Origin: a virus
Reading direction: 5' to 3' (one strand)
DNA: 33,027 nt
IMG/VR virus record: IMGVR_UViG_3300031227_007781
Coordinates: 1-33,027 of that record
The notes under the pieces: model-generated
What the model was told of the DNA's origin: nothing
Seen by the model: only the letters and a program-made list of their open reading frames with translations
Databases searched by the model: none
In this document: positions 9,715-33,027 of the stretch, piece after piece
Layout of the letters: each line of letters opens with the position of its first letter
How positions within the stretch are numbered: position 1 is the first letter of the stretch
Translations under genes and position numbers: made by a program

Positions 9715-11063
9715 TGAAATTCCCATTAGTAGTAGCTCGTAAAAATCGTCTGGATAAATTAGAAAATGAGATAGTAGAATTAAAGAAAGTACAAGCTAAA
9801 GGCTTTGAAACTATCCCTGTTTATAGTAAACAAATGTTTACTAGTAGAACTGGTAGACTTACTTGGTCAGAGTTATGGGAAATTTATGAGAAGTCATCTG
9901 CTGTTAGAAATTCTGTTGATTCATTGGCAAATGAGATTTCATCTCTTCCGTGGGAAGTATTACCCAAAAGAGGAAAGAAACTAAACAGAAGAATTGAAAG
10001 AGAAATTAGAGACGCTACTGATTTTTTCAGAGATCCAAATTCTAATCAGGAATCTTTATCTCAGATAATAAAGAAACTTTCTGTTGATATCCTTGTGTAT
10101 GCTGGGGGAGCTCTAGAAAAAGTTAAATCTGTATCTGGCAGGAAGATATTAGAGATTTATGCCAGAGATGCTCATACATTTAAGGTAGATGTAGACGGGC
10201 ATGGTTATCTTAAAGGTTATAGACAAGTTTATAATTACCAAGATCCAGTTAATTTTAAGCCGAATGAAATAGTTTATTTTATTTTTAATGCTACTACCCA
10301 TTCCGTTTACGGCTTTCCAATTATTGAATCCATCATTGATGAAATAGCCATCCTTTTAAGTTCCAATGCATATATTTCCGCTTATTTTACTGAAGATAAC
10401 ATCCCGCCTGGTGTTTTAAATATGGGAATGATTGGTCCGGTAGCTTATGATGCTGCTAAACAGGAATTTATGGCAGATAGAGGTCAGTTATCTAAAGAAC
10501 ATCTTAGGTTAATTTATGGAACTCCAGGAGTTGAATGGGTAGAATTCAGAAGAGGTAATCAAGAATCTCAGTTAGATGAGTTAAGACAATCTGTTGAGAG
10601 AGTTGTTTATAGGAATTTTGGCGTCCAGCCTATTGAATTTGGAGCCCTTCAAGGGAGCAACCGAGCAACGGCATTAGTTCAGTTCAAAGTTTCTAGAACC
10701 AAGACATTATATCCTATCGTTAATATGTTTAATGATTTCTTTACTAAAGAGTTACTAGAGGATGCTGGATATAGGGACTTAAAATTTAATATAATTAAGC
10801 CAAGATTTGAAGATGAAGAAGAGATTTCTAAGGCTGATTATCGTTATATTAATCAAGGAGTTATGAGTATTAATGATGTTAGAAGAAAGAAAGAAATACA
10901 TCCAGAAACTATTCCTGGTGGAGAAGTATATACAAGGAGTATTGGTGGACAATTAATCTATGTAAAGGATTTATCCAATCAGGGAAAAGTAGAGGAACTT
11001 TTGATGAAACCTGATATGAAAGGATCAAAGAATCCACCTCCTGGATTACAGGTAAATAGATAA
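9714..11063 (+). CDS. Portal protein
   Basis: A 449-residue portal that forms the dodecameric DNA channel at the prohead vertex. It follows the terminase with a TAATG overlap. Recognisable portal features are the N-terminal SSAVRNSVDSLANEISSLPW segment, the central DILVYAGGALEKV and NEIVYFIFNATTHSVYGFP wing/stem segments and the C-terminal helical region with FGVQPIEFGALQG. I cannot separate HK97-type from SPP1-type portals by eye. The nearest ribosome binding site (AAAGGAGG, about 25 bases upstream) is too far, so translation is likely coupled to the terminase. Confidence 0.88.
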   Translation: MKFPLVVARKNRLDKLENEIVELKKVQAKGFETIPVYSKQMFTSRTGRLTWSELWEIYEKSSAVRNSVDSLANEISSLPWEVLPKRGKKLNRRIEREIRDATDFFRDPNSNQESLSQIIKKLSVDILVYAGGALEKVKSVSGRKILEIYARDAHTFKVDVDGHGYLKGYRQVYNYQDPVNFKPNEIVYFIFNATTHSVYGFPIIESIIDEIAILLSSNAYISAYFTEDNIPPGVLNMGMIGPVAYDAAKQEFMADRGQLSKEHLRLIYGTPGVEWVEFRRGNQESQLDELRQSVERVVYRNFGVQPIEFGALQGSNRATALVQFKVSRTKTLYPIVNMFNDFFTKELLEDAGYRDLKFNIIKPRFEDEEEISKADYRYINQGVMSINDVRRKKEIHPETIPGGEVYTRSIGGQLIYVKDLSNQGKVEELLMKPDMKGSKNPPPGLQVNR

Positions 11064-12454: not shown

Positions 12455-12603
12455 ATAGCCTATTAGTCAGTATTGAAGAGCTGACTAAAGATAATGGTAT
12501 GCTTAAAGATAATGTTATGGATTTACAAAGAGAGATTATTGTATTGAGGACTAAGTTAAATAAAGATGAATGGTATATGGCAACGAGAGGTGATGATAAA
12601 TGA
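12451..12603 (+). CDS. Possible 50-residue coiled-coil protein with ATA start
   Basis: A reading frame open from 12409 ends at 12603, overlapping the next ATG as ATGA, which is typical of coupled phage genes. It has no ATG, GTG or TTG before an internal ATG at 12499, yet the heptad-like helix (SLLVSIEELTKDNGMLKDNV) begins well upstream. AGGAG at 12442-12446 is 4 bases before an ATA at 12451. I place the start there tentatively; a 34-residue product from 12499 is the alternative. Function unknown. Confidence 0.4.
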   Translation: MDSLLVSIEELTKDNGMLKDNVMDLQREIIVLRTKLNKDEWYMATRGDDK

Positions 12604-13415
12604 GTGAAGGTTTAGCTTCTACAGATTCAAAATCTACTATTGGAATACTTGAGTATATTAGTAAGCCTTGGAGTAGCATGAAGGATGTGCCTAAATCCGT
12701 TAGGGGGGCTGGGCTATCACTCACACAAGCCAACACCTGGAGCAAGTTCTACGATGCGGGAAAATCATTTGCTGAGAACCCAGCTGGATATGCTTGGTAT
12801 AGATTCAAACAAGCTTATAAGAAAGTTGATGGTAAATGGAAGAAGAAAGTTAAGAAATCAGATGATTTTGTTACGTGGGAAAAGATTAGTGAAATGCTGA
12901 ATTCAGATGAAAGATATACTGAAGAACTTCAAGGTGTTGCTAAAGAGGAAATTATACGATTGGCTGCTGAATTTATAGAAGAGAAGGGAATTAAGAAAGA
13001 AGATACTACTGTTAGCAAAGCTAGATTTGGATTTGTTAAAGTCGATGCTAAAGAATATATAGTTGGCGGAGTTGTATATCCATCGAATGGTAGCTTTGAT
13101 TCTCAAGGTGATAGAACTACTCCTGATGAGAACTGGAAAGCAATGAAGAAGTATATGCTTAAGTATGCTAAAGATAATAAAATGATTAAAGTTAATCATA
13201 AAGGTGAGAAGAGGAATATACCAATTGTTGAAAGCTATTTCGCAGAAGATGATCACTTTAAGGGTGGCTTCTTGTCAGAGAATAGAGTTATGAAAGGTGA
13301 TTGGTATATGTCGCTATATCTTGGAGATCATAAGGATATATTTGAGTCTGTTGAGAAAGGTGAATTGACTGGATTTTCGATACATGGTGAAGCTTATGGT
13401 CAAGAGGTTGGTTAA
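12600..13415 (+). CDS. ChaB-like domain fused to XkdF-type prohead protease
   Basis: A 271-residue protein with two regions. Residues from about 24 to 85 match the ChaB fold (VPKSVRGAGLSLTQANTW ... YAWYRFKQAYKKVDGKWKKK). From about 145 on, the sequence matches XkdF-like putative phage serine proteases: IVGGVVYPSNGSFDSQGD, IVESYFAEDDHFKGG and VEKGELTGFSIHGEA. XkdF-family proteins sit between portal and capsid genes and are thought to mature the prohead. The ATG overlaps the preceding frame. ChaB-XkdF fusions occur in phages; the ChaB part may bind DNA or a partner. Confidence 0.8.
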   Translation: MSEGLASTDSKSTIGILEYISKPWSSMKDVPKSVRGAGLSLTQANTWSKFYDAGKSFAENPAGYAWYRFKQAYKKVDGKWKKKVKKSDDFVTWEKISEMLNSDERYTEELQGVAKEEIIRLAAEFIEEKGIKKEDTTVSKARFGFVKVDAKEYIVGGVVYPSNGSFDSQGDRTTPDENWKAMKKYMLKYAKDNKMIKVNHKGEKRNIPIVESYFAEDDHFKGGFLSENRVMKGDWYMSLYLGDHKDIFESVEKGELTGFSIHGEAYGQEVG

Positions 13416-13428
13416 GGGGGTGGTATAA

Positions 13429-14643
13429 ATAAAGAATTTATTTGATATTACAATTGACGAGATTTCCCTAGTCGACAAAGCAGCGAATTTAAAGAAATTT
13501 TTACTTGTTAAGGCTATAGGAGAAGGTGCTGGTGTTGGAGGTCCACGACAGGGAGTAGGAGGCACATCTTATTGTGTTTGTAGTAAGTGTGGCTATTCCC
13601 AGAAGCATAAAAAAAGTGGCTCTGGGGAGTCTACACCATGTGCTAAGATTAAATGTCCTAAGTGCGGTTCTCCTATGAAGGGTTCTAGTACAAAGAAATT
13701 AGGTAAGGAGGTGGAAGATTTGGCGAAGAAAAAGAGGCTAAAGATTTTGATAGATAGTGATATGACCGATGCAGGTACGAAGATATCGGTGGATGGAGCA
13801 GAATTGTCTGAATTGCGTAATTTCTATTTTTCCTATTATGGACCTTCTGTAGACTCATATGAGAGTTCAAGTGTAAATCCTATTTCGTGTGAATATACTA
13901 TGACGGTAGAATCTAAAGGTGATTTTAGCCGTACTGAAACATGTCGTTTATCAAAGTCTGATAGGGAGGTGATTAAACGTATGGAAAAGGATCTCAAAAA
14001 AGGATTGATTGGTGTCTTGGGTAAGGAGTATGATTTAGAGAAACTTGAGAAGGCTGAATTATCCGATGAGGTTACTGCTGCCTTGAAAGATGTAGTAGAG
14101 AAAGCTACTGTATTGGCTAAGGAAAAGGCTGATAGTGAGAAAGTTAAGAAGGATGCTAAGACTGAGAAAGAGAAAGTGGAGAAAGAAGAGAAGGAAAAAG
14201 CTGATAAAGAAGCTTTAGAAAAGACAGAATTGGAGAAGAAAGAAAAGACAGAATTGGATAAGAAAGAAAAAGAAGAGTTAGAGAAGAAAGCTACTGAGAA
14301 AGAAGTTCTTGAGAAGAAGGTTAAGGATGCTGAGATAGCTCTATATAAGGCCAAAGCAGAGAAAGAGAAATTGGAGAAAAAGACTGAGAAGGATAAATCT
14401 GAGATTGGCAAGCAATTTGAGAGTTTTGCTACTAAGATGGAAGAAGTATCCAAGGCTATAAAGGAATTGCAGGATAGAATTCCTATTAGGAAAGGTCTAG
14501 GAGTAGAAAGTGAAGAAAGGGATGAAGATGTAAAAGAAGGATTAGAGAAGATTAGAAATTCCAAAGAATACCAGGAAGCTTCTGGTACTCAGAAGTTAAG
14601 TTTGTTTTTAGCTAATAAGATAGATGGAGGTGAGAAAGAATAA
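13429..14643 (+). CDS. Zinc-ribbon/coiled-coil scaffold-like protein (probable ATA start)
   Basis: The frame is open from just after a TAA at 13426-13428. Its first codons encode KNLFDITIDEISLVDKAAN followed by KKFLLVK, a conserved phage-prohead-protein start. The next stretch is a zinc ribbon (CVCSKCGYS ... CAKIKCPKCGSPM). No ATG, GTG or TTG lies upstream of 13675, so calling from that ATG would discard the conserved 82-residue N-terminus. GGGGGTGG at 13416-13423 is 5 bases before ATA at 13429, the likely start. The C-terminal 200 residues are a Lys/Glu-rich coiled coil, as in internal scaffolds. The gene lies directly before the capsid gene and overlaps it by one base. Total 404 residues. 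Confidence 0.7.
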   Translation: MKNLFDITIDEISLVDKAANLKKFLLVKAIGEGAGVGGPRQGVGGTSYCVCSKCGYSQKHKKSGSGESTPCAKIKCPKCGSPMKGSSTKKLGKEVEDLAKKKRLKILIDSDMTDAGTKISVDGAELSELRNFYFSYYGPSVDSYESSSVNPISCEYTMTVESKGDFSRTETCRLSKSDREVIKRMEKDLKKGLIGVLGKEYDLEKLEKAELSDEVTAALKDVVEKATVLAKEKADSEKVKKDAKTEKEKVEKEEKEKADKEALEKTELEKKEKTELDKKEKEELEKKATEKEVLEKKVKDAEIALYKAKAEKEKLEKKTEKDKSEIGKQFESFATKMEEVSKAIKELQDRIPIRKGLGVESEERDEDVKEGLEKIRNSKEYQEASGTQKLSLFLANKIDGGEKE

Positions 14644-15668
14644 TGGACCAAAAAGATAGAATTCGTAAAGCATTGAGTTCAGGCGATTCTACTTCATATA
14701 TTGCTCTATTGGAGCAACCAGAAATAGATAAAGTTATCGCAGATCTGGTTGATTGGAAAAATCCATTAAGGCAGAATGTGCCCCGTATCCAAGGGGGTGG
14801 AAAAGCTTATAGATGTCTAAGGAGAACAGCAGTTGCAACTACGGCAGCTTATTGGGTTGCTGAGACTACAACCACAACCGCTACTTCCTATATGGCTGAT
14901 AGTTCATTCACTATGTTTGAATGGGTTTATAGAACTTTATGGGCAGCTGGTAGAGTGACTCGTAAGTATCAGGCTATTGGTCGTTCCTATAAGGATATTC
15001 TTGCAGAGGAAATTGCGGATAGATTGAAGGATTTTAAAAACGTGGAAGACCATTCTATGGTAGCTGGAAGTTCTACTGGTACTTCGCTTACTCCTAGTAC
15101 ATCTAGTTATGGTTTAGGTTTGAGTGGTCAGATACCATCTGGTTTGGGTGAGTGCATCAATATGTACAACTCGGCTTCTCAGCAAGTATATACTGAGAGT
15201 GCTAGTACTACTGGTGGAACGAGTTTGACTTTGACAAAATTGGATGAGATGATTGATAAGTGCAAAGGTGTTCCTGATGCTCTGATTATGACTAAGAAAT
15301 CCAGAAGGATTGTAAGAGCACTTTTACAGGTGACTCAAAGATTTGTCAATACGGTTGAAGTGAAGGGTGGATTCAAGCTGATGGCTTATGATGATATTCC
15401 TATTTTTGTCAGTAGTAATATGAGTGATGCGGAATATCTCCGAAGCGACAATACGGTGGAAACTTCTGCGCAGGATAGTGAAGCGGCATCTGGTTCGATA
15501 TATGCTGTTAACTTTGATGAGTTTTTCGTTGCAGAGTTGACTCCTGTTAAAATTGAGGCATTAGCCAAGACTAGTTCACAGTACGATGGATTTGAAATAT
15601 ACTCTGACGAAGTTTTCGTTTTGCGTGATCCTTTGACCTGTGCGCGATTACTCGGTTGTATGGAATAA
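14643..15668 (+). CDS. Major capsid protein
   Basis: A 341-residue HK97-fold-type capsid protein, called from position after portal, protease and scaffold and from its sequence. It has an N-terminal helical segment followed by PLRQNVPRIQGGGKAYRC, a Thr/Ala-rich region with WVAETTTTTATSYMADSSF, a helical segment AIGRSYKDILAEEIADRL (spine helix-like) and a C-terminal beta region with SIYAVNFDEFFVAELTPV. GGAGGTGAG precedes the ATG. It lacks an obvious long N-terminal delta domain, in line with a separate scaffold gene. Confidence 0.82.
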   Translation: MDQKDRIRKALSSGDSTSYIALLEQPEIDKVIADLVDWKNPLRQNVPRIQGGGKAYRCLRRTAVATTAAYWVAETTTTTATSYMADSSFTMFEWVYRTLWAAGRVTRKYQAIGRSYKDILAEEIADRLKDFKNVEDHSMVAGSSTGTSLTPSTSSYGLGLSGQIPSGLGECINMYNSASQQVYTESASTTGGTSLTLTKLDEMIDKCKGVPDALIMTKKSRRIVRALLQVTQRFVNTVEVKGGFKLMAYDDIPIFVSSNMSDAEYLRSDNTVETSAQDSEAASGSIYAVNFDEFFVAELTPVKIEALAKTSSQYDGFEIYSDEVFVLRDPLTCARLLGCME

Positions 15669-15728
15669 AAATTAAATAGAGGCACTATTGATGTCTTTAA
15701 GGTACTATTGGGTGATAGGAGGTATAAT

Positions 15729-18055: not shown

Positions 18056-19360
18056 ATGCCACAAATAAAGAACATTAATACAGCTGAATATTGGGATAAG
18101 AAATGGAGTGGAGTATTTTCTGTTGATCAAGTCCCATATCAGAATGAAGTAGATTATGTTATTGCTAATTGGGTAAGACCTAATCTAAGGGTATTAGAGA
18201 TTGGTTGTGGGGCAGGGACGTTGATGCTAAGACTTAGAGAGGCTATTCCAGATATTGATATTATCGGATTGGATATCTCTACTTATGCAGTAAAGATCAC
18301 TAAGGCTCATGGCTTCAATGCCGAAGTAGCTAAAGTCCCACCTATACCTTTTAAAGATAATTCTTTCGATTTGGTCATTGCTGAAGAGCTAATAGAGCAC
18401 ATTGATGAAGACGATGAATTATTAAAGGAAATGATTAGAGTAGGAAAAGAATGTATTATTTCCACTCCGAATGGTTTGATGAAAGATGAAAATGGTAATG
18501 TTATAGAAGAGCATGTAAATTATTATAATGAGATAGAATTAAGAAATAAGTTAAAAGAGTTAGGACAGAAATTTGAGTTTAAGAAGAGGCAAGGTAGATT
18601 ATTATTTAGATTTGCTAATGAAGATGAGTTTATAGAACCTTTGATTAAATCAGTTCATTTAGGTTTAGCTTGCTATAAAGGTTTTGAATCAGATTCGGTT
18701 ATATCTCTTCTGACACCATATGCAAAATTAGTAGGAAATTTACAGGAACAATTCGTTCAGAATGCAATGGGGAAATCGGGTAAGATTATTGTTCCTAATA
18801 TCATTTTCTATCTTCCACAGTATATCGGATATTTTTCGAGTTGTAATATGCCATTCACAAGGAATGATATTGTGAATAAGTTTCTTGAGATGGACGCGGA
18901 ATATCTATTTTTTTTCGATTCGGATATGGAGTACGATGTATCTAGAATTAAAGATTTAATAGATGCAGATAAAGATATGATTGGAGGGCTTTATAATAAG
19001 AGGATGCCTGGAGAAGTATCTACTATTGCGCGTCTTACAAAAGATTATGGTATGATAGCAGATTTGAATTGGCCTGTTAATCAATTATATGCTTGTGATG
19101 GGCTTGGGATGGGTGCTACAATTATTAAAAGGGAAGTCTTTTTGGCAATGGATTCCCCTTATTTTGAATATCTTTTTATAGGACAAGGTAAGATGTCAAG
19201 AGAGCCATTTAAAGGAGGTAGGATGACTGGGAGTGATTGGTCATTTTGCTGGAAGGCTAAACAGAAGTATGGATTCCAGATATATGTGGATACAAGTTTT
19301 GTATGTAGTCACATCGGGAAGTCTAAGTATCGGCCTACGATTAGAGGAGAAATATTATGA
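18056..19360 (+). CDS. Methyltransferase-glycosyltransferase fusion
   Basis: A 434-residue bifunctional-looking protein. The N-terminal 190 residues are a class I methyltransferase with VLEIGCGAGT near residue 50, the IGLDIS loop, FDLVIAEELIEHI and an IISTPNG strand. The C-terminal half resembles a GT-A glycosyltransferase of the GT2 type: FFFDSDMEYD near 285-293 (DXD-like), LGMGATIIKREVF and GSDWSFCWKAKQKYGFQI. AAAAGGAGG precedes the ATG. It is located within the virion gene run. I infer that it adds and methylates sugars on a phage or host surface molecule, with acceptor unknown. Confidence 0.82.
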   Translation: MPQIKNINTAEYWDKKWSGVFSVDQVPYQNEVDYVIANWVRPNLRVLEIGCGAGTLMLRLREAIPDIDIIGLDISTYAVKITKAHGFNAEVAKVPPIPFKDNSFDLVIAEELIEHIDEDDELLKEMIRVGKECIISTPNGLMKDENGNVIEEHVNYYNEIELRNKLKELGQKFEFKKRQGRLLFRFANEDEFIEPLIKSVHLGLACYKGFESDSVISLLTPYAKLVGNLQEQFVQNAMGKSGKIIVPNIIFYLPQYIGYFSSCNMPFTRNDIVNKFLEMDAEYLFFFDSDMEYDVSRIKDLIDADKDMIGGLYNKRMPGEVSTIARLTKDYGMIADLNWPVNQLYACDGLGMGATIIKREVFLAMDSPYFEYLFIGQGKMSREPFKGGRMTGSDWSFCWKAKQKYGFQIYVDTSFVCSHIGKSKYRPTIRGEIL

Positions 19361-21185: not shown

Positions 21186-24100
21186 ATGGCTTTTGGTGGC
21201 AGTTTAAGAAATGCTAATTCTCCATCAACAAATCCTACTGGTATAGGAGGAGATGCAAATACTATTTGGCATTGTGATGCTGAGACGAAGGATGTATATG
21301 AACTTTCCACCACAGACTTATCCACAGTAAGAAATGCTGATTCTCCATCAACAAATCCCTCGGGTATTGGCGGAGACGCTAATACTATTTGGCATTGTGA
21401 TAGTATTTCAGATGATGTTTATGAGCTAAGCACAACTGATTTCTCAACAGTAAGAAATGCTGATTCTCCTTCAACCTTTCCTTTTGGTATTGGAGGAGAT
21501 GCTAATACTATTTGGCATTGTGACCCCCGTCCTGATGATATATATGAGCTCTCTACGACAGATTTCTCCACAGTAAGAAATGCTAATTCTCCTTATTCTG
21601 CCCCAAATGGCATAGGTGGAGATGCTAATACTATTTGGCATTGTGATAGTATTTCAGATGATGTTTATGAGCTAAGCACAACTGATTTCTCAACAGTAAG
21701 AAATGCTGATTCTCCAGCAAGAAATCCCTTTGGTATTGGTGGAGATGCTAATACTATTTGGCATTGTGATGGTTATCCGGATGATGTTTATGAGCTGGAT
21801 GCAGCTTCTAATCCAAACGACCTTGAATGCGAAGGAGCGACTAATCCTACTGGCGTAACGGATTTAACTCCTGAATTTACTGCGAAACTATATTCGGATG
21901 ACCCAGGAGATAGTTTTGACCACGTAATGATAGAAGTAGGCACATCAAAAGGTGCTCATGATATGTGGCAATCTGCTTCTATTGCTATTACTGAAGTAGC
22001 TTTTAACATTAGGTGCGCCACAGTTAGTTATGCCGGCGATGCACTTGCCTTGGATGGTACGAAGTATTATTGGCGGATAAAAGCACAGAATTTGGATGAT
22101 GAATGGACTGACTGGTCAACGGAAGAAGCTACTTTTACGATGCAAGTTCCAAATCAAGCTCCTTCTGCTCCTACCTCTCTGGAATGCGAAGAAGCTACTA
22201 ATCCTACTGGTGTAACTGATTTAACTCCTGAGTTTACAGCAGTTCTTTCTGACCCTGATAGTGATGACTTAACCCACGTTCAAATCCTAGTTAATACGAC
22301 TGAGGCTTTTGATGGCGTTGAGATGTGGGATTCGGGTTCAGTCGATATTGCAGATTGCACGAGTGGCAATAGATGTGCGGCGGTAAGCTACGCGGGGACA
22401 GTCCTTGCTCAAGGTGGTACGAAATATTATTGGAAAATAAGAGCTTATGATGGAACAGTTTGGGGAGATTATTCAGCAGTTGCTAATTTTACGATGGCGA
22501 CGGCTAATACACTTAGTATTAGTGACATTGTTGGATTGTTAGATGATGTTCCTCAGATGCTAGATATTGTTCCTATTGCTGATAATATTGGATTATTAGA
22601 AACTCATATTTCGTTAGGTAGTTTTTCTGTATCTGATGATGTAGGATTGTTATCTGCCACTTCTCCTAATATATTAGAGAAGATAACTGAGTCTCTTGGT
22701 TTATTAGTAGATATTCCTCAGTTATTGGATATAATTTCTATTACAGAGAATTTAGGTTTGTTGGAATCACTTCCACAGATGTTAGATATAATTTCTATTA
22801 CTGAGAGTTTAGATTTATTATCTACTCTTTCTCCTGATGTAGTTGATAAGATAACTGAATCTCTTGGTTTATTGGAGGCTATTTCTCCTGATATTGTTGA
22901 AAAGATAACTGAATCTCTTGGCTTATTGTCTACTCTTTCTACTAAGATGATAGAGAGTATTACAGATATTCTTGGTTTATTAGAGGCACTTCCACAAATA
23001 TTAGATATAATCTCTATTACTGATTCCCTAGGATTACTTGAGACATTATCTCCTGATATAGTAGAGAAAATAACTGAGAGTTTAGGTTTACTATCTACTC
23101 TTTCTCCTGACGTAGTTGAGAGGATAACAGAGAAGTTAGGACTACTTGAGACATTATCTTCCGATATTGTTGGAAAGATAACTGAGAATCTTGGATTACT
23201 AGAATCTATTCCACAGATGTTAGATATAATTTCTATTACAGAGAATCTTGGATTACTATCTACTCTTTCTCCTAAGATGATAGAAAAGATAACTGAGAAG
23301 TTAGAATTACTTGAGACATTATCTCCTAAGATGATAGAGAAGATAACTGAATCTCTTGGTTTGTTATCTACTCTTTCTCCTAAGATGATAGAAAAGATAA
23401 TCGAATCTATTGGACTATTAGAGGCACTTCCTCAGTTATCGGATATAGTTTCCATTACTGAGAGTTTAGGTTTGTTATCTACTCTTTCTCCTGATATAGT
23501 AGAGAAGATAACTGAGTCTCTTGGCTTATTATCTACTTTATCTCCTGATATAGTAGAGAAAATAACTGAGAATTTTGGATTACTTGGGACATTATCTCCT
23601 GGCATAATAGAGAAGATAACTGATTCTCTTGGTTTATTAGCAGATATTCCACAAATATTAGATATAATTTCTATTACTGAGAGTTTAGAATTACTTGAGA
23701 CATTATCTCCTAAGATGGTAGGTAAGATAATCGAGAATTTAGGATTGCTTGAGACATTATCTCCTGATATAGTAGAGAAGATAGTTGATTCTCTTGGCTT
23801 ATTGTCTACTCTTTCTCCTGATATAGTAGAGAAAATAACTGAGAAGTTAGGATTACTAGAATCTATTCCACAGATGTTAGATATAATTTCTATTACCGAG
23901 AAGTTAGGATTATTAGCAGATATTCCACAAATATTAGATATAATTTCTATTACTGAAAAGTTAGGACTACTTGAGACTCTTTCCCCTGATATAGTAGAGA
24001 AGATAACTGAGTCTATTGGACTACTTGAGACATTATCTCCTAAGATGATAGAGAGTATTGATGATATTCTCGGTTTGTTAGTAGATATTCCGCAGATATT

Positions 24101-26171
24101 AGATATAATTTCTATTGTAGAGAATTTAGGATTATTATCTACTCTTTCTCCTAAGATGATAGAGAGTATTACTGAGAATATTGAGCTACTTGAGACTCTT
24201 TCCCCTGATATAGTAGAGAAGATAACTGAGTCTCTTGGCTTATTATCTACTTTATCTCCTGATATAGTAGAGAAGATAACCGAGTCTCTTGGATTGTTAG
24301 AGTCACTCCCACAAATATTAGATATAGTTTCTATTACAGAGAATTTAGGCTTGTTAGAATCACTTCCACAGATGTTAGACATAATTTCTATTACTGAGAG
24401 TTTAGGTTTATTATCTACTCTTTCTCCTAAGATGATAGAAAAGATAACCGAGTCTCTTGGTTTATTATCTACTCTTTCTCCTAAGATGATAGAAAAGATA
24501 ACCGAATCTATTGGTTTATTATCTACTCTTTCTCCTGATATAGTAGAGAAGATAACCGAATCTCTTGGATTACTTGAAGCATTATCTCCTAAGATGATAG
24601 AGAAGATAACTGATTCCCTTGGAGTGCTTGAAACACTTTCTCCTGATATGGTAGAAAAGATAACTGAATCTCTTGGCTTATTATCTACTCTTTCTCCTGA
24701 TATAGTAGAGAAGATAGTTGATTCTCTTGGCTTATTGTCTACTCTTTCTCCTGATATAGTAGAGAAGATAACCGAATCTATTGGCTTATTATCTACTCTT
24801 TCTCCTAAGATGATAGAGAAGATAACCGAGTCTCTTGGTTTATTAGAAGCACTTCCTCAGATAAAGGATATAGTTTCTATTACTGAGAGTTTAGAATTAC
24901 TTGGGACATTATCTCCTGATATAGTAGAGAAGATAATTGAATCTGTTGGATTATTAGAAGCACTTCCTCAGATAAAGGATATAGTTTCTATTACTGAGAG
25001 TTTAGAATTACTTGGGACATTATCTCCTGATATAGTAGAGAAGATAATTGAATCTGTTGGATTATTAGATGATTTAGTTATTTATGGTGGTATTGTGTTA
25101 GCTATTACTGAGTCTCTTGGATTATTAGAATCTATTCCACAGATGTTAGATATAATTTCTATTACAGAGAATCTTGGATTGTTAGAATCTATTCCACAGA
25201 TGTTAGATATAATTTCTATTACAGAGAATCTTGGATTATTGTCTACTCTTTCTCCTGATATTGTTGGAAAGATAACCGAGAAGTTAGGACTACTTGAGAC
25301 ATTATCTCCTAAGATGATAGAGAAGATAACTGAGTATCTTGGTTTATTATCTACTCTTTCTCCTAAGATGGTAGGTAAGATAACAGAGTATCTTGGTTTA
25401 TTAGAATCTATTCCACAGATGTTAGACATAATTTCTATTACTGATTCTCTTGGATTACTTGAGACTATTTCTCCTAAGATGATAGAGAAGATAACCGAGA
25501 AATTAGGATTGCTTGAGATTCTTTCTCCTGATATTGTTGAGAAGATAATTGAGTCTGTTGGTTTGTTATCTACTCTTTCTCCTGATATAGTAGAAAAGAT
25601 AACCGAGAGGTTAGGATTACTTGAGACATTATCTCCTGATATAGTAGAGAAGATAACTGATTCTCTTGGTTTATTAGAATCTATTCCACAAATATTAGAT
25701 ATAATTTCTATTACTGATTCTCTTGGATTACTAGAATCTATTCCACAGATGTTAGATATAATTTCTATTACAGAGAATCTTGGATTATTGAGTGAGTTTC
25801 ACTTCACTTCGTTTACACAGATAGAGGATATTATAGGTAATTTAGAAAGACTATCTTATAGTGGGTCAACATCTATAGATGACTTATTAGGCTTGTTAGA
25901 GGATTGGCGTAGAGTTGGTACAGTTTATGTAAATGTTTCTGAGAAGATTGGACTATTAGAAAGTTTGACATTCAAGGTAGAGGAAACAATAGCTGAAGAG
26001 CTTGGACTTGAAGAAGCTGTAGTAGAAGCGATATATGAATTAATTATATATACAATTTTGAGTATTCTAAGATACTTGACTTCTACGGACGCTCTTAAGT
26101 ATCAAACTGAATCAAGTGTGTTAGGATATAAAACTAAGACAGAAGTTTGGAATAAGAAGGTGAGAGTATAA
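21186..26171 (+). CDS. 1661-residue repeat protein with propeller, Ig-like and helical repeats
   Basis: The largest gene of the window. Residues from about 5 to 205 hold five near-identical units of about 42 residues (GIGGDANTIWHCD ... YELSTTDFSTVRNADSPS), likely beta-propeller blades. Residues from about 205 to 440 are two Ig/FN3-like domains that both start with NPTGVTDLTPEFTA. From about 440 to 1535 come roughly 57 units of 18-19 residues, of two types: ITESLGLLSTLSPDIVEK and ITENLGLLESIPQMLDIIS. The C-terminal about 130 residues are non-repetitive and end STDALKYQTESSVLGYKT. No signal peptide or anchor is seen. I infer a long fibre, whisker or host-adhesion protein of the virion. The repeat run probably varies by recombination. 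Confidence 0.85.
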   Translation: MAFGGSLRNANSPSTNPTGIGGDANTIWHCDAETKDVYELSTTDLSTVRNADSPSTNPSGIGGDANTIWHCDSISDDVYELSTTDFSTVRNADSPSTFPFGIGGDANTIWHCDPRPDDIYELSTTDFSTVRNANSPYSAPNGIGGDANTIWHCDSISDDVYELSTTDFSTVRNADSPARNPFGIGGDANTIWHCDGYPDDVYELDAASNPNDLECEGATNPTGVTDLTPEFTAKLYSDDPGDSFDHVMIEVGTSKGAHDMWQSASIAITEVAFNIRCATVSYAGDALALDGTKYYWRIKAQNLDDEWTDWSTEEATFTMQVPNQAPSAPTSLECEEATNPTGVTDLTPEFTAVLSDPDSDDLTHVQILVNTTEAFDGVEMWDSGSVDIADCTSGNRCAAVSYAGTVLAQGGTKYYWKIRAYDGTVWGDYSAVANFTMATANTLSISDIVGLLDDVPQMLDIVPIADNIGLLETHISLGSFSVSDDVGLLSATSPNILEKITESLGLLVDIPQLLDIISITENLGLLESLPQMLDIISITESLDLLSTLSPDVVDKITESLGLLEAISPDIVEKITESLGLLSTLSTKMIESITDILGLLEALPQILDIISITDSLGLLETLSPDIVEKITESLGLLSTLSPDVVERITEKLGLLETLSSDIVGKITENLGLLESIPQMLDIISITENLGLLSTLSPKMIEKITEKLELLETLSPKMIEKITESLGLLSTLSPKMIEKIIESIGLLEALPQLSDIVSITESLGLLSTLSPDIVEKITESLGLLSTLSPDIVEKITENFGLLGTLSPGIIEKITDSLGLLADIPQILDIISITESLELLETLSPKMVGKIIENLGLLETLSPDIVEKIVDSLGLLSTLSPDIVEKITEKLGLLESIPQMLDIISITEKLGLLADIPQILDIISITEKLGLLETLSPDIVEKITESIGLLETLSPKMIESIDDILGLLVDIPQILDIISIVENLGLLSTLSPKMIESITENIELLETLSPDIVEKITESLGLLSTLSPDIVEKITESLGLLESLPQILDIVSITENLGLLESLPQMLDIISITESLGLLSTLSPKMIEKITESLGLLSTLSPKMIEKITESIGLLSTLSPDIVEKITESLGLLEALSPKMIEKITDSLGVLETLSPDMVEKITESLGLLSTLSPDIVEKIVDSLGLLSTLSPDIVEKITESIGLLSTLSPKMIEKITESLGLLEALPQIKDIVSITESLELLGTLSPDIVEKIIESVGLLEALPQIKDIVSITESLELLGTLSPDIVEKIIESVGLLDDLVIYGGIVLAITESLGLLESIPQMLDIISITENLGLLESIPQMLDIISITENLGLLSTLSPDIVGKITEKLGLLETLSPKMIEKITEYLGLLSTLSPKMVGKITEYLGLLESIPQMLDIISITDSLGLLETISPKMIEKITEKLGLLEILSPDIVEKIIESVGLLSTLSPDIVEKITERLGLLETLSPDIVEKITDSLGLLESIPQILDIISITDSLGLLESIPQMLDIISITENLGLLSEFHFTSFTQIEDIIGNLERLSYSGSTSIDDLLGLLEDWRRVGTVYVNVSEKIGLLESLTFKVEETIAEELGLEEAVVEAIYELIIYTILSILRYLTSTDALKYQTESSVLGYKTKTEVWNKKVRV
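21198..21795 (+). repeat. Five propeller-type blade repeats (about 126 bp)
   Basis: The 5' end of the giant gene contains five units of about 126 bp encoding GIGGDANTIWHCD-containing blades. The tract is more conserved at DNA level (ATGCTAATACTATTTGGCATT repeated) than expected from codon choice alone, so it expanded recently or is homogenised. Two units share the SISDDVYELS version, others vary (AETKDVYELS, RPDDIYELS). Confidence 0.75.
22510..25790 (+). repeat. About 57 tandem 54/57-bp coding repeats
   Basis: A 3.3-kb tandem array within the giant gene. Units are 54 bp (ending SPDIVEK or SPKMIEK) or 57 bp (ending IPQMLDIIS), interleaved irregularly. Sub-blocks LSTL, LETL, LEAL and LGTL combine freely with DIVEK or KMIEK endings, which implies repeated recombination and shuffling. 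The long minus-strand frames seen across the array are side effects of the repeat. Confidence 0.9.
24840..25069 (+). repeat. 111-bp tandem duplication within the repeat array
   Basis: Positions 24840-24958 and 24951-25069 are identical over 119 bases at an offset of 111 bp, covering two repeat units (one 57-bp, one 54-bp). Most other units differ at several positions, so this is probably the most recent duplication in the array and marks ongoing length change. Confidence 0.85.
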
Positions 26172-26483: not shown

Positions 26484-27035
26484 ATGAGTTTGCTGGTCAC
26501 GCTAGATGATATCAAATTATATATAGGGATTGATCTTGATGAGACTGCATATGATCCTCAGTTAAGGAAATTCAATTCTAGAGTATCTAATCTTGTTGAG
26601 ACTTCCTTAGACAGGACTATTGCTGCTACTACTTATACTGAATACTTTGATATTTATACTTATACTACAGATAGAGTAGTATTGAAGAATCTTCCTATTA
26701 TATCTGTAGCTGCTGTTACAGATTATGGTTCATTAGTTAGTTCTGATAAATATAAAGTAAAAGAGGAATCTGGAGCTATTGTTCTTTTAAGTCAAAGATA
26801 TTTTACTCCAGAAATTGAATCAGTTGAAGTTACATATTACGGAGGATACGAATCAGATGATGTTCCTGGAGGTATAAAAGGAATAGTCTACGCGATTATT
26901 GATGCTATAATATCGAGGCAGGGAAAAGAAGGATTGATTCAATATAGACTAGGCGATCTTTCAACTCGTTTAAACCCAAGTTTATTGGAACCTTTTAAGG
27001 AGGAACTTATATTGTATCGGGGAAAGATTACATAA
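26484..27035 (+). CDS. Head-tail connector (gp6-like) protein
   Basis: A 183-residue protein with GGAGGTG upstream. The N-terminus (VTLDDIKLYIGIDLDETAYD), the middle strand LPIISVAAVTDYGSL and C-terminal helix IKGIVYAIIDAIISRQGKEG match the gp6-like head-tail connector family. It forms a ring between the portal and the tail. The distance from the portal gene is unusual because capsid and other genes lie between. Confidence 0.7.
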   Translation: MSLLVTLDDIKLYIGIDLDETAYDPQLRKFNSRVSNLVETSLDRTIAATTYTEYFDIYTYTTDRVVLKNLPIISVAAVTDYGSLVSSDKYKVKEESGAIVLLSQRYFTPEIESVEVTYYGGYESDDVPGGIKGIVYAIIDAIISRQGKEGLIQYRLGDLSTRLNPSLLEPFKEELILYRGKIT

Positions 27036-27656: not shown

Positions 27657-28118
27657 ATGACCAAGTTTGAGAATCAACCTAAGAATATCGAAGAAGAGTT
27701 GGTGCTAATAGAAAGTAGTGTCAAATTGACTGGTTTTGGGATATTAATTTCTACTGAAATTGAGGATAAGGAAACATTAGTTCTCAATTTTGTTCCAGAT
27801 GTAGAGAAATTTGGAAAAGATTATAAGATGCTTACTCTTGCTATTTTCGATATGATGACTTTTACGGCTATGAGAGTTAAGCAATATAATATTAAAGAAA
27901 TTTCTTGTCGTTTTAGAATAGCTGGCGATAAGCATTCAATGGATACTAGAGTTGAGGATTTAGTAAGGTATCGTTCTCACACTATTCAAAATGCAAGGAA
28001 AAAGAATATAGATAGAAAGCAATTGTGGAAAGGTATTAGAAATACAGATTTGAAGAATTGGATAAAGTCTTCTACTTATGTTAGACTCCCAGTCAAAGAA
28101 GAAGCTGATGTTTCTTAG
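27657..28118 (+). CDS. Hypothetical protein, tail region
   Basis: A 153-residue alpha/beta protein with AAAAAGGAG upstream of its ATG. Central strand ETLVLNFVPDVEKFGKDY and a basic helical region (RKKNIDRKQLWKGIRN) are visible. It overlaps the glycosyltransferase start. Family unknown. Confidence 0.6.
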   Translation: MTKFENQPKNIEEELVLIESSVKLTGFGILISTEIEDKETLVLNFVPDVEKFGKDYKMLTLAIFDMMTFTAMRVKQYNIKEISCRFRIAGDKHSMDTRVEDLVRYRSHTIQNARKKNIDRKQLWKGIRNTDLKNWIKSSTYVRLPVKEEADVS

Positions 28119-28869
28119 CGTCATTATTCCAGTTAAATTTGAGGATAGAATTAAGAGAACTACAAAGAGATTACTTTCTTGTCTGAGAAGTTTAGATGTA
28201 GGTTATCAAAAAGATAACGATTATGAGATTATAGTTTCTGATTTAGATAGTGATTTAAAGTTTGTTCCAGAGATAAAAGATATTTGTTCTAAATTTTCTA
28301 ATTGTAAATTGATCAGACATACTGGAGAGAAATTCTGGTGTAGGTCGAGAGCGATTAATGAAGGAATAAAAGTTGCTTCTGGTAAGTATATTCTATCCAC
28401 AGATTTGGATATGATTTTTAGTTCTAATATGGTGAGAATAGTTAGGAATAATGTAGCTCAAAAAACGTTTCTTCAATGTCATTGTAAATATGTTGATAAA
28501 GATTTTGGAGATGATGTTTCTTTGAGTATGATTCCTGAATTAGAGAAGAATTATCATTTATCAAAAGATTTTACTGCTGGTGGATTTCAGTGTATTGACC
28601 ACCATAGATTAATAATTCATCCATTTGATGAAAGTTTTAAGGTTTGGGGAGCAGATGATTCTGTGATGAGAGATTGTTTAATAGAAGATGGTTATGCTCT
28701 CAGATGGATTGATGACCAAATTTCAATGTATCATTTATGGCATAAATCTTATTTGGATATTATTACTCAAGAAGAGATGAGTATTAAGGATATTAACCTA
28801 TCTATGTGGTTTTCAAAGGTATGGGCATATAAGGCTCAGAAAGTGCATTATAAGGAGCTTGAGATTTGA
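28108..28869 (+). CDS. GT2-type glycosyltransferase
   Basis: A glycosyltransferase of about 253 residues. The start is set at ATG 28108 (FLSVIIPVKFED is the first strand of the GT-A fold), overlapping the previous gene by 11 bases; an upstream in-frame ATG lies at 28078. The EIIVSDLDSDLKF and STDLDMIFSSNM segments give the DXD-like site, and the C-terminal KVWGADDSVMRDCLIEDGY matches the galactosyltransferase-type ED region. The acceptor is unknown. It overlaps the DUF115-like gene that follows and forms the start of a sugar cassette. Confidence 0.82.
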   Translation: MFLSVIIPVKFEDRIKRTTKRLLSCLRSLDVGYQKDNDYEIIVSDLDSDLKFVPEIKDICSKFSNCKLIRHTGEKFWCRSRAINEGIKVASGKYILSTDLDMIFSSNMVRIVRNNVAQKTFLQCHCKYVDKDFGDDVSLSMIPELEKNYHLSKDFTAGGFQCIDHHRLIIHPFDESFKVWGADDSVMRDCLIEDGYALRWIDDQISMYHLWHKSYLDIITQEEMSIKDINLSMWFSKVWAYKAQKVHYKELEI

Positions 28870-29600
28870 AGCCAATAGAAACAATAAGAGATAGACATAA
28901 GGGAGAAGAGATATGGGTTATTGGAATGGGGCCCAGCATAGATGATTTACCAGATAACTTCTTTAAAGATAAGATATCTATTGTAGTCTCTCATTATGAA
29001 GCATTTCCAGATTTTACTTATATACTATGTAAAGATGTAATTAAGGATATTGGGAATCAGCATCCAGAATTCCTTGATAGATGCATTGTAGAGGGAACAA
29101 AGTATAGGGGGCAAATTGGGGATAAAGCTAATAAGACATTGTATATGAGAGAGAATGATGATCGTTCTTCTTTGCAAGAAGATAAATGGGTGGAGTTTGC
29201 AAAGTGTATTATGGAGAAAAGGAATGATTGTCTCTATGGTGGAGCAGGGACTATTCTTCATTCTGCATTAATGGCAGCTATTGTTATGGGTGCAAAACGT
29301 GTTATCTTGGTTGGTGGGGAAGCTAGAACAACAAAAGATAGATTTTACTCCAAGAGAATATCGGAATCTTATGAAAAGACTGCTAGAGATTCTGAAAATT
29401 GGAATGGTGTTCAATGGTGCGAAGATGATCAGAAAGGACTTGTGGATAAGTTTCCCATTTATAGAAATGGGACTATCTTATTAGCTAGAGTATTTAGACC
29501 TTATGGTATTAAAATTTTAGAATATTATCACAAATCCAAGTATGAATTTCAGAATGGATTTAGGGAGTTGGCTGATGAAGTATTTAGAAAGTCTGCGTGA
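28866..29600 (+). CDS. DUF115/GT42-like protein, copy 1
   Basis: A 244-residue Rossmann-like protein starting TTG at 28866 with AAGGAG 8 bases upstream. The N-terminal EEIWVIGMGPSIDDLP and later GAKRVILVGGEA match DUF115 (Maf flagellin-glycosylation, MptE-like) and GT42 sialyltransferase signatures (GxGPSL). It is the first of three paralogues. Members of these groups transfer nonulosonic acids such as pseudaminate or sialate, or bind pterin diphosphate. Here the neighbouring cytidylyltransferase favours CMP-sugar use. Function inferred. Confidence 0.7.
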   Translation: MKPIETIRDRHKGEEIWVIGMGPSIDDLPDNFFKDKISIVVSHYEAFPDFTYILCKDVIKDIGNQHPEFLDRCIVEGTKYRGQIGDKANKTLYMRENDDRSSLQEDKWVEFAKCIMEKRNDCLYGGAGTILHSALMAAIVMGAKRVILVGGEARTTKDRFYSKRISESYEKTARDSENWNGVQWCEDDQKGLVDKFPIYRNGTILLARVFRPYGIKILEYYHKSKYEFQNGFRELADEVFRKSA

Positions 29601-30453
29601 TAAATTTGGTGGAAGAGAGATTTGGGTAGTTGGTTGTGGCCCTAGTTTAGATGATTTTCCAGAGGATTTCTTCAATGATAAGATTGTTATTACAGTTAAT
29701 GCTTCTTATATAAATATTCCAAGCTATACGTATAATGTTAGTCAGACTCATGGTAATATACATGAGTTTAATGAAGATATATCTTTGCTTAAGAAAAGTA
29801 TTATTGGTGCTATACCAAGAGCTATCCCACATATAGATGTGGAGAGATTCCCAGACTTTCAAAGTGGTTGGGATATTGAGGATATGGTTAGTGCTTGGAC
29901 TGGTCCTATATCAAGCGAGGTAGTAGCACTTGGTGTAAGAAGACAACTACCATCAATCGCACAGTTCAATACAGAGATTGATATTGTAGATTGGAAGTTA
30001 ATTAAAGAAGAGCAACTTCCTTATTTTATGAAATGGAACCCACTTTATTATTTTGTTCAGGAATCTTATGATGAAGTTGCTAAGAATATTATTGAAAAGA
30101 CATCTAAGATTTATGTACTTAATATTACTACATTGTCTTTTGCTATTCAAGTTGCTGCTGTCCTCGGTGCAAAAAAGATTTTTCTGGTTGGATGTGGAGC
30201 GGAAAGAATTGGTATAGTTCATCATTCTCAGAGTGAAGCAGAGTATTTTGATAGAGTACTTGATGATCGTAAGAAGTTGGGGATTGACCATACTCAAGAA
30301 TGGTGGAATATTATGTGGGATACAATGTTCGTTGCATACAAAAAAGAAGTTGGGTTTCTTGCTATAGCATTTGATAAATATGATATAGAGATAGTTAGAT
30401 ACTTCTTTAAGTCTTATGGAAGTTATAGTATAGGAGAAAATAAAATAGTATGA
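29575..30453 (+). CDS. DUF115/GT42-like protein, copy 2
   Basis: A 292-residue paralogue. The start is set at ATG 29575 because AGGGAG lies 7 bases upstream and the protein then aligns with the starts of the other two copies. It has EIWVVGCGPSLDDFP, a larger middle region with many aromatic residues (NPLYYFVQESYDEVAKN) and GAKKIFLVGCGAE. The middle insert may set acceptor specificity. It overlaps copy 1 by 26 bases and copy 3 by 4. Confidence 0.7.
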   Translation: MKYLESLRDKFGGREIWVVGCGPSLDDFPEDFFNDKIVITVNASYINIPSYTYNVSQTHGNIHEFNEDISLLKKSIIGAIPRAIPHIDVERFPDFQSGWDIEDMVSAWTGPISSEVVALGVRRQLPSIAQFNTEIDIVDWKLIKEEQLPYFMKWNPLYYFVQESYDEVAKNIIEKTSKIYVLNITTLSFAIQVAAVLGAKKIFLVGCGAERIGIVHHSQSEAEYFDRVLDDRKKLGIDHTQEWWNIMWDTMFVAYKKEVGFLAIAFDKYDIEIVRYFFKSYGSYSIGENKIV

Positions 30454-31232
30454 GACATATTGAAGACTTAAGAGACATCTATTCTGGAGAGGAGATTTGG
30501 GTAGTAGGATGTGGTCCAAGTATAGGTGACTTCCCAAAAGGGTTTTTTGATGATAAAATATTCATAGGTCTAAACGAAGCTTATCTATTATTTCCTAATT
30601 GTACTTTTAATTGCTCGATTCATGGACATATTTGGGATGATGTTAAACAGAATCATCCTGCATTATTGGAGAAGCTAATACTATGTTATCCTCAATTTAC
30701 AGATGAACTTGCAAAGACTCATAAAGCATGGCAAGGAAGTAATGAGAAGTATGCTCATGATTGGAGACTTAATTGGATAGAAGATTGTGGAGATAAGCCT
30801 ATTTATATGAAATGGTATGATAGTCATCCATTTCCACCTATTGATGAGATAAAGAAAAGATTGAAAATTGTAGTTGAATCTATTGTGAATAAGGTACCTA
30901 CTATTTATCCATCATTAAATACAGTATCGCATGCTGGCATCCAAGCGGCTATGATATTGGGTGCTAGAAAGATAACTCTAGCTGGTTGTGATGAAGCTAG
31001 TTCCAAAGATGGAACCCATACTTATGTAGAAATATTTAATTCTTTTCCTCCAGAATGGAATGCAAAGAATGAAGTAGCTGCTGGGCTACTCGCTAGTGAA
31101 CGCCAAGGCAATATGGGAAGTTGGTATATTAGAGCTAGATATGGAACCAGATGTTTGGTAGAAGTATTTGGTAGTTATGGGTTTGATATCCAGAAATATT
31201 TCATTGGAGAAGGTTATAGGAGGATAGTATGA
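30450..31232 (+). CDS. DUF115/GT42-like protein, copy 3
   Basis: A 260-residue third paralogue in the set, with EIWVVGCGPSIGDFP at the start and GARKITLAGCDEASSKDGTH in the C-terminal part. That segment matches the DUF115 pattern LGxxxIxLxGxDxxxxxGxxHx best of the three. The start overlaps copy 2 as ATGA; AGGAG is about 14 bases upstream. Three divergent copies in a row suggest that they act on different linkages or substrates. Confidence 0.72.
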   Translation: MRHIEDLRDIYSGEEIWVVGCGPSIGDFPKGFFDDKIFIGLNEAYLLFPNCTFNCSIHGHIWDDVKQNHPALLEKLILCYPQFTDELAKTHKAWQGSNEKYAHDWRLNWIEDCGDKPIYMKWYDSHPFPPIDEIKKRLKIVVESIVNKVPTIYPSLNTVSHAGIQAAMILGARKITLAGCDEASSKDGTHTYVEIFNSFPPEWNAKNEVAAGLLASERQGNMGSWYIRARYGTRCLVEVFGSYGFDIQKYFIGEGYRRIV

Positions 31233-32065
31233 GAGCATTAGAAAAAGAGATTAGAAAGTATAATATTCTAGGATTTTGCCAAGTAAGAAAAGAAGGTAGT
31301 ATTCATGGAGAACATCCAAATAGAGCACTCTGGGATATATGTGGAAAACCTTGTTTTCAGTGGGTACTTGAGGCAGTTAAAGGTTGCCACTATATAAACA
31401 AGATTGCGGTAGTTACTGATTCAAGAGAGATTAAGGAACTATTATATAAGATAGGTGGTGTTGTAGTAGTTGATCGCCCTTTAGCTTCATCCCTTAATAT
31501 GCCACGTGATTATACCAAAGGGATGTTTAAAAGGACGAAGCCACGTTCGTTATTGTGTAGGGATAGTTTAGTCTATTCTGGTACTATGGGATTAGCTGAT
31601 TTCCATCTGGAACAAGAAGAAGGTTATATTGCAGATATTTGGGTAAATATAGGTGCGAATGAGCCTATGGTTACTACTGAAATATTCAACCGTTTAATCG
31701 AGAAGTTCTTTGAAGATGAGGAAGCTGGTAGAGTGATAACAGTACATAGGTTCCATGAATATCTCCATATTATAAATCCTACGACTGGTAGAATATATCC
31801 AGTGATGAATCTTGGTGGGATGGATAGACAAGAATGGCCTGAAATGTTTAGTGAAGGAGCACCTACTATTACGGGGATGCCATCTATATGTACTACACAA
31901 CCACTTACTGGAAAAACTGCGTATATTGAGGCTCTTCCAGAAGAGATGGTTGATATGCATAATGGAGATGATTTATTCTTAGCTAGAGTATATATGGCGA
32001 GAAGATTGGAAAGAGAGAAAATTAGTAAGGGAGGTAGAGGAATACAAATTTCTAAAAAAGCATAG
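31229..32065 (+). CDS. CMP-nonulosonate cytidylyltransferase-like enzyme
   Basis: A 278-residue nucleotidyltransferase-fold enzyme resembling CMP-sialate synthetases (NeuA). Strand CQVRKEGSIHGEHPNRALW corresponds to the nucleotide-binding region, CGKPCFQWVLEAVKGCHYIN to the helix after it and IAVVTDSREIKELL to the next strand and helix; IWVNIGANEPMVT carries a loop typical of the family. The usual ARxGSK start is changed here, so substrate and activity need care. It would supply CMP-activated sugar to the adjacent transferases. The ATG overlaps the preceding stop and AGGAGG is present. Confidence 0.72.
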   Translation: MRALEKEIRKYNILGFCQVRKEGSIHGEHPNRALWDICGKPCFQWVLEAVKGCHYINKIAVVTDSREIKELLYKIGGVVVVDRPLASSLNMPRDYTKGMFKRTKPRSLLCRDSLVYSGTMGLADFHLEQEEGYIADIWVNIGANEPMVTTEIFNRLIEKFFEDEEAGRVITVHRFHEYLHIINPTTGRIYPVMNLGGMDRQEWPEMFSEGAPTITGMPSICTTQPLTGKTAYIEALPEEMVDMHNGDDLFLARVYMARRLEREKISKGGRGIQISKKA

Positions 32066-32086: not shown

Positions 32087-33027
32087 ATGCGAAAAAAGAT
32101 TTTAGTAGGAATTTTAGCGGTGAGTTTGATACTTGGTTTGATGAATTTTGTGGCAATTGGTAAAAGGACAATTACGTATTGGAGTGAGGAAGCTCCTACT
32201 CTTGGTAATGATTTAGCAAATGTTCTAAAATTTGAAGCTCTTAATCCAGATGTTGATATAGTTAGAGAGTATATTCCAGCTGGTAATATGGCTGAGAAGA
32301 TGATGATGGCTATTGTGGGGAATAGTACTCCAGATGTTGTGAAAGGTTATCAGGGAAGAGCTGGCTCTTATTGGTATCAAGGAGCACTTGAGTCTCTGAC
32401 TGGTACTTTGCCTCAAGTAGATTTGGATGACTATATTCCTAGTGTATTAGAACTTTGTTCAATAGATGGAAATCTAATTGGTTATCCTTTCCCTTATGGT
32501 GCTAGAAATTGGGGAGTAAATCCTGTTATGTTGGAAAGGGCAGGAGTATCCAGTCTTGTGCCTATTACTGGAGATAATCGAGAATGGTATATGGATGATT
32601 TTATGACAGTAGCGGAAGCGATTGGTGAATTGGATGGAGTATACCCCATCGCATTTTTTGCAAAGGGTGGTTCTGGTGATTATTATACTCTTGTAAACTT
32701 CCAAATGTTTGGAGCAAATTTATATGAAGATGGAGACCATACTAAGACTACTCTGAACAGTGATGCTGGTGTCGAAGCTCTTGAGTGGATGATTGAAATG
32801 GTGGAAATGGGGTTGGCCCCTGATGGTGCTGCTGCTCTATGTGATGATGATTTCGTTGCTATGAAAGCGGCTGGAAAGGTAGCTTTTGGTGGATGGCCTC
32901 GTACGAAAGCACAATGGCAGAAGAACTTTGATAATGGATTGATTGGTTATGTAACTGAAGATATACTTATAGAGCCGCCTCATAAGAAGGGTACTCCAGC
33001 ACCTACTTTGTTTATTGGTCCAGACCT
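32087..33027 (+). CDS. ABC-type sugar-binding protein, cut by the window end
   Basis: An extracellular solute-binding protein (family 1, carbohydrate-binding type), 313 codons to the window edge without a stop. CTAGGAGGT precedes the ATG. The N-terminus (MRKKILVGILAVSLILGLMN) is a Sec-type signal peptide without a lipobox Cys. Mature residues include RTITYWSEEAP, ALNPDVDIVREYIPAG, STPDVVKGYQ and a WMIEMVEMGLAPDGAAALC helix, the usual pattern of sugar-binding proteins. Such genes normally lie in bacterial ABC operons; here it follows phage genes and a sugar cassette. It may be a virion sugar-binding module, a metabolic gene or a host gene at a junction. Confidence 0.88.
   Translation, partial: MRKKILVGILAVSLILGLMNFVAIGKRTITYWSEEAPTLGNDLANVLKFEALNPDVDIVREYIPAGNMAEKMMMAIVGNSTPDVVKGYQGRAGSYWYQGALESLTGTLPQVDLDDYIPSVLELCSIDGNLIGYPFPYGARNWGVNPVMLERAGVSSLVPITGDNREWYMDDFMTVAEAIGELDGVYPIAFFAKGGSGDYYTLVNFQMFGANLYEDGDHTKTTLNSDAGVEALEWMIEMVEMGLAPDGAAALCDDDFVAMKAAGKVAFGGWPRTKAQWQKNFDNGLIGYVTEDILIEPPHKKGTPAPTLFIGPD

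Follow-up and report, generated by a model that had tools for sequence, protein, structure and literature searches.

A tailed-phage gene cassette that may scavenge, activate and transfer a sialic-acid-like sugar

The cassette and its proposed function

The linear fragment IMGVR_UViG_3300031227_007781 of the IMG/VR virus collection (33,027 bases, referred to in its whole length as the window) carries towards its right end a tight operon of five plus-strand open reading frames (ORFs) at 28108-32065, which encode a GT2-type glycosyltransferase, three DUF115/MptE-like proteins and a cytidylyltransferase, and which are followed directly by the gene of a solute-binding protein. We propose, at roughly even odds, that these genes belong to a phage-borne module that scavenges a nonulosonic acid (a sialic-acid-like sugar) from outside the cell, activates it and transfers it to an acceptor.

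The module would act in three steps. The secreted binding protein (gene start at 32087), two permeases expected just past the end of the contig and a shared ATPase of the host would import the free sugar acid; the enzyme encoded at 31229-32065 would, as its family strongly argues, couple this acid to cytidine triphosphate (CTP) and so yield a cytidine monophosphate (CMP) sugar; and the three DUF115/GT42-like paralogues would, with moderate confidence, pass the sugar on to acceptors, possibly on a glycan or primer that the GT2 enzyme has started. The acceptor could be the virion, for example a possible fibre with Ser/Thr-rich repeats (21186-26171), or the host envelope, where the modification might block other phages. 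For sialic acid, legionaminic acid, pseudaminic acid (Pse) and 3-deoxy-manno-octulosonic acid (Kdo), CTP activates the free acid directly and in one step, so that import and one enzyme would suffice and a synthase would not be needed.

A preliminary description of this DNA had recognised a GT2 transferase, three paralogues and a CMP-sialate-synthetase-like enzyme as consecutive genes with overlapping starts, and ORFs, Pfam matches and the overlaps at the successive junctions (4, 26-59, 4 and 4 nt) all agree with it. The GT2 gene occupies 28108..28869 (alternative start 28078) and is followed by DUF115 a at 28866..29600 (TTG start with AAGGAG upstream), by DUF115 b at 29575..30453, whose ORF opens at 29542 and whose start at 29575 agrees with the alignment and has GGGAG upstream, by DUF115 c at 30450..31232 and by the cytidylyltransferase at 31229..32065. 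Good Shine-Dalgarno sequences precede DUF115 a, DUF115 c, the cytidylyltransferase and the binding-protein gene. The end of the cassette, which had been set at 32065, lies at least one gene further downstream, because the binding-protein gene (32087..33025, plus strand, running off the contig end) begins only 21 nt past the cytidylyltransferase and is preceded by the ribosome-binding site GGAGG.

Transferases and activating enzyme

The GT2 protein (PF00535, 5.1e-11, 43.2 bits, cut-off 23.3) is likely to start or extend the acceptor glycan, and a GT2 gene also stands ahead of DUF115 in two related phage contigs, G002 and G005. Upstream of the cassette, at 21186-26171, the window encodes a 1661-aa protein with N-terminal repeats, a Rha78A-like Ig domain, about 48 copies of a repeat of the KITESLGLLSTLSPDIV type and 20% Ser+Thr, possibly a fibre and at the same time a target of glycosylation.

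PF01973 (MptE-like, formerly MAF_flag10/DUF115) is the sole Pfam match that recurs in all three DUF115-like proteins, with 19.2, 23.8 and 21.8 bits for a, b and c, respectively (E 1.1e-3, 4.3e-5 and 1.8e-4; cut-off 34.6). Being about 34% identical to each other and sharing the motif GxGPS(I/L)xDFPxxFFxDK, they are, by their sequences, true paralogues. In an AlphaFold model of DUF115 c built from eight sequences (predicted local distance difference test, pLDDT, 74) the best match in the PDB is the GT42 sialyltransferase CstII (1ro8; probability 0.99, E 3.4e-3, template modelling score, TM, 0.33), and human ST8SiaIII is likewise among the matches. DUF115 c is predicted to be a GT42-like transferase of a CMP-activated sugar, as the preliminary description had assumed for all three paralogues. 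Maf enzymes take several CMP-activated acids as donors (PMC11339370), a precedent for such a transfer. A search of a viral structure library with the model returned MptE-like proteins of uncultured Caudovirales (BFVD entries), DUF115 b has a weak match to the PHROG alpha-2,3-sialyltransferase (E 0.026), and a homologue in the phage contig G003 matches the PHROG of the same name at 2.3e-5. With 244-303 aa the proteins correspond approximately to the core domain alone, and the full Maf architecture with its extra N- and C-terminal domains is not found in them. A scan of viral contigs with a DUF115 alignment gave four loci, and the paralogues are conserved in four other phage contigs; an alignment of eight sequences proved too diverse for scanning. 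Among named phage records neither the DUF115 proteins nor the cytidylyltransferase found a match.

The cytidylyltransferase (PF02348, 1.2e-8, 35.5 bits, cut-off 22.6) is by strong family inference, drawn from profile and fold, of the CMP-sialate/CMP-Kdo type, which bears out its earlier designation. A profile of the three phage members searched against the PDB places CMP-N-acetylneuraminate (CMP-NeuNAc) and CMP-Kdo synthetases on top (CMP-NeuNAc synthetase 1.3e-9), and the leading PDB fold matches of the model are CMP-NeuNAc, CMP-Kdn, CMP-Kdo and CMP-Pse synthetases (E 3e-10 to 2e-7). In a search for cellular relatives the profile returned one weak match in 694 genomes of two phyla. The result is neither that of paralogues scattered over unrelated families nor that of a cytidylyltransferase for some other sugar lacking any link to DUF115.

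A link to nonulosonic acids comes from G003 (38.8 kb), a contig with a TerL 30% identical to that of the window and two DUF115 proteins that share 31-33% identity with those of the window. Beside them (1-5112 of L009/G003) lie PseB and PseC genes, both above the NCBIfam equivalog cut-offs, as well as a PF02348 enzyme, and at the contig edge the first 41 residues of a further protein match the N-terminus of NeuB/SpsE synthases. This is apparently a phage-borne pathway of the pseudaminic-acid type next to two DUF115 genes, and through the homology of the latter this DUF115 group is connected with nonulosonic acids. SpsF-type enzymes belong to a CMP-legionaminic acid pathway (PMC7439481).

A transporter beside the activating enzyme

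The binding protein matches SBP_bac_1 (PF01547, 2.2e-15, 57.9 bits, cut-off 26), as expected for the extracellular sugar-binding protein of a CUT1-type ATP-binding cassette (ABC) importer. Its gene is incomplete at the contig end, and its N-terminus contains a hydrophobic stretch, which by eye resembles a signal sequence without a lipobox. The contig G002 (18.6 kb; TerL 37% and portal 43% identical to the window's) shows the continuation that can be expected, as its gene order is GT2-DUF115-cytidylyltransferase-binding protein-permease-permease-radical SAM/SPASM-TerL-portal, with a binding protein 39% and a cytidylyltransferase 44% identical to those of the window. A different arrangement is present in G005, a 98.9 kb contig that encodes a tail tape measure protein and a tail chaperone: methyltransferase, GT2-radical SAM fusion, GT2, DUF115, binding protein, permease, permease, cytidylyltransferase, DUF115, where a cysteine motif, judged by eye, identifies the radical SAM part of the fusion. 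Radical SAM/SPASM proteins alongside the module are encoded at 8352-10019 of contig L011 and 7735-8793 of L007.

The two permeases that follow the binding protein in G002 and G005 have intact EAA-like loops and are 50-55% identical between these contigs (50-58% among phages). Their nearest cellular relatives reach at most 44% identity on plasmids and, in 249 sampled genomes, at most 48% over the full length or 50% over a partial match; the binding-protein profile, searched against genomes, found only proteins with 21-26% identity. In a permease tree the phage sequences form two supported clades, which is compatible with one or two origins. It might be argued that the binding-protein gene of the window is host DNA at the edge of a prophage. 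We reject this explanation because its homologues are located inside two other phage contigs, between the cytidylyltransferase, the permeases and TerL/portal or tail genes. We also discarded the transporter matches in named phage records, which are weak and belong mostly to unannotated 'Listeria phage' and faecal records resembling bacterial contigs, and the match in Microcystis phage MaAM05, which is surrounded by bacterial housekeeping genes.

A scan with permeases only, and hence without selection for cytidylyltransferases, uncovered a second, unrelated phage lineage with other TerL and portal types, in which a binding protein and two permeases are followed within 0.6-1.4 kb by distinct PF02348 enzymes. 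The order is binding protein, permease, permease, PF02348 enzyme and two sodium:solute symporters in L021, and binding protein, permease, permease and two PF02348 enzymes in L022; these cytidylyltransferases are only remotely similar to that of the window. In a third contig, L017, which is cut just before its permease, no cytidylyltransferase occurs in the 4.7 kb downstream. The same kind of transporter is thus accompanied by different members of the same enzyme class in two lineages, a pairing that argues for a functional link, within a small sample. We tentatively consider, as a weaker proposition than the module itself, that unrelated tailed phages independently assembled transport-coupled glycosylation, in which an importer of their own, installed in the infected cell, would run on the shared ATPase of the host and feed an acidic sugar to a phage CMP-synthetase and phage transferases; the surface chemistry of virion or host would then depend on sugars taken up from outside the cell during infection. 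Two further features of these contigs were noted: the symporters of L021 (PF00474) stand in tandem at 12837-15691 beside the cytidylyltransferase and ABC importer genes, and in L022 the terminase-like gene at 12620-15229 (869 aa) is split by an intein that carries a LAGLIDADG domain.

No ABC transporter ATPase (ABC_tran) scored above its cut-off in the ten contigs, all of them fragments, and the ATPase may be supplied by the host. A precedent is provided by the CUT1 importers of NeuNAc in Streptococcus pneumoniae, which consist of a binding protein and two permeases and have no ATPase gene of their own, the driving ATPase being debated (PMC3302838); in the phages the genes are viral and the shared ATPase would be that of the host.

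The preliminary description had also stated that no synthase is present and that the sugar may come from the host. The former holds, since a NeuB profile (PF03102) found nothing in the window or the other contigs (ten in all), apart from the 41-residue start at the edge of G003. As to the latter, the adjoining binding-protein gene and the layout in the relatives suggest phage-encoded import of the sugar and not simply host metabolism. The gene set of G003 implies that this DUF115-type phage makes its sugar; the transporter-bearing phages show no synthase. The earlier interpretation as a nonulosonic-acid glycosylation cassette is accordingly supported in part.

Weighing the explanations

Several observations speak against a scavenging module. 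The window breaks off within the gene of the binding protein, so that the permeases of its phage would lie off the contig, and the ligand of the binding protein cannot be read from its sequence (the NCBIfam names MalE/UgpB and, for the permeases, UgpAE-type are all far below cut-off). All three DUF115 proteins stay under the curated threshold of PF01973, and the match to CstII has a low TM and an E-value just above 1e-3. The model of the cytidylyltransferase, derived from three sequences, has a pLDDT of only 58, and the C-terminal DxD metal site of NeuA reads DxH in all three phage enzymes. Finally, every contig is a fragment, so that the absence of a synthase or ATPase gene carries little weight.

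The most serious rival, to which we give a modest share of the probability, likewise assumes nonulosonic-acid glycosylation, with the sugar coming from host biosynthesis or from phage synthase genes elsewhere, and with the ABC transporter serving separate nutrient uptake and being adjacent by chance. The Pse and NeuB-type genes of G003, which has the same DUF115 type, would fit this explanation, as would the incomplete window contig and the maltose and glycerol-phosphate types among the best-named relatives of the binding protein. Against a chance neighbourhood stand a transporter that adjoins the cytidylyltransferase in the window, G002 and G005 in differing gene orders, and the pairing of a transporter with other cytidylyltransferases in a separate lineage. 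Somewhat less probable still is the activation of Kdo or a different 3-deoxy-ulosonic acid instead of a nine-carbon nonulosonic acid, which would leave the mechanism otherwise unchanged. Kdo is common in Gram-negative hosts. The best NCBIfam matches of the cytidylyltransferase are 3-deoxy-manno-octulosonate cytidylyltransferase subfamilies (8.7e-10), all under the curated cut-offs (best 38 bits vs 193; the PseF model, for comparison, 18 vs 205.7), and a Maf protein of Clostridium botulinum accepts CMP-Kdo in addition to CMP-Neu5Ac (PMC11339370). Yet NeuA-type alignments run through the C-terminal RRQD/W motif, the RQ of which is kept in 3/3 phage enzymes, whereas KdsB-type alignments end before it, and the relative G003 has pseudaminic-type genes.

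Two further explanations appear improbable. On the one hand, a UgpB-like transporter could import glycerol phosphate or a similar compound for decoration with a CDP-polyol or phospho-sugar, a CDP-alditol being made as for teichoic acids. This would accord with the permeases, whose highest scores are those for UgpA/UgpE (127-138 bits, cut-offs about 300), with a LicD protein in G003 and with IspD/TarI folds further down the fold list of the cytidylyltransferase; but CMP-ulosonate synthetases clearly come first in both its profile and its fold, a CDP-alditol transferase does not accompany it, and DUF115 is linked to nonulosonic acids. On the other hand, and a shade less probable again, the three paralogues could be MptE-like pterin kinases or other Rossmann-fold enzymes, given the present name of the Pfam model and a best PDB sequence match to a 6-hydroxymethyl-7,8-dihydropterin pyrophosphokinase, which at E 0.2 is not significant. 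Against this stand the best fold match, which is to a sialyltransferase, and the neighbouring GT2, cytidylyltransferase and Pse genes, among which no pterin genes were seen.

Relation to known systems

The proposed module resembles the Maf/DUF115 (PF01973) flagellin glycosyltransferases, for example of C. botulinum and Magnetospirillum, in its MAF/MptE-like core, a putative GT42-like fold and the predicted CMP-nonulosonate synthetase alongside. It differs in that the phage proteins comprise the core only and fall below the Pfam cut-off, and that their genes stand among late genes of a phage and not next to flagellin. The same three logical steps are found in bacterial sialic-acid scavenging (import by TRAP, SatABC-type CUT1 or SSS transporters, activation by NeuA/SiaB, and a sialyltransferase), but in the phages they would form one linked module with importer sequences distant from cellular ones and a putative substrate.

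That phages modify the glycans of their hosts is known, and genes related to transport occur in some of them. Among phage genes, epaA-epaB of Acinetobacter prophages change nonulosonic-acid decoration by epimerising host-made pseudaminic acid of the capsule (PMC12053666), whereas in the window's cassette activation, transfer and probably uptake would be phage-encoded. The DUF115/MptE-like proteins of uncultured Caudovirales in BFVD represent the same fold family in tailed phages; we found no described link between them and a transporter or a CMP-sugar synthetase. Nor did open-access full text, the scope of our search (subscription papers and preprints lie outside it), contain an account of a phage-encoded sugar importer with a link to CMP-sugar activation. 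Phage DUF115 proteins and nonulosonic-acid modification by phages are already known, and the linked importer appears to be new.

If our proposal is correct, a phage is able to provide its host with the means of taking up a particular sugar for surface modification, and environmental sugars would shape phage-host recognition. Small transferases and transporters of a new set would become open to assay. For the DUF115 proteins of phages, many of which await characterisation, the cassette offers a function that can be tested.

Other features of the phage

Tailed-phage genes of the window encode TerL (8224-9714), portal (9714-11063), an XkdF-type protease (12600-13415), capsid (14643-15668) and a head-tail adaptor (26484-27035). 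The contig G001 (40.6 kb) is 99.8% identical to positions 2-20750 of the window and extends it upstream only; the part downstream of the window was sought there and is absent, as G001 covers that segment and the upstream region.

An RlaP-type RNA-repair nucleotidyltransferase (925-1707; PF10127, 2e-13) lies near a TROVE/Ro60 protein (2568-4058; PF05731, 2e-26), and together their domains identify a phage-borne RNA-repair neighbourhood of the Ro60 type. A papain-like cysteine protease (PF00112) is encoded at 4354-5223, and a metallophosphoesterase-like protein whose N-terminus carries a zinc ribbon at 6220-7449. In the product of 18056-19360 a methyltransferase domain is fused to a C-terminal domain that matches phrog_1574 and has a weak match to the Anp1 glycosyltransferase family. 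The upstream region of this phage (L006) contains two small genes, at 2538-2969 and 10241-10678, that share the motif 'TNPCNC.GIMGKGL', which by eye appears macrodomain-like.

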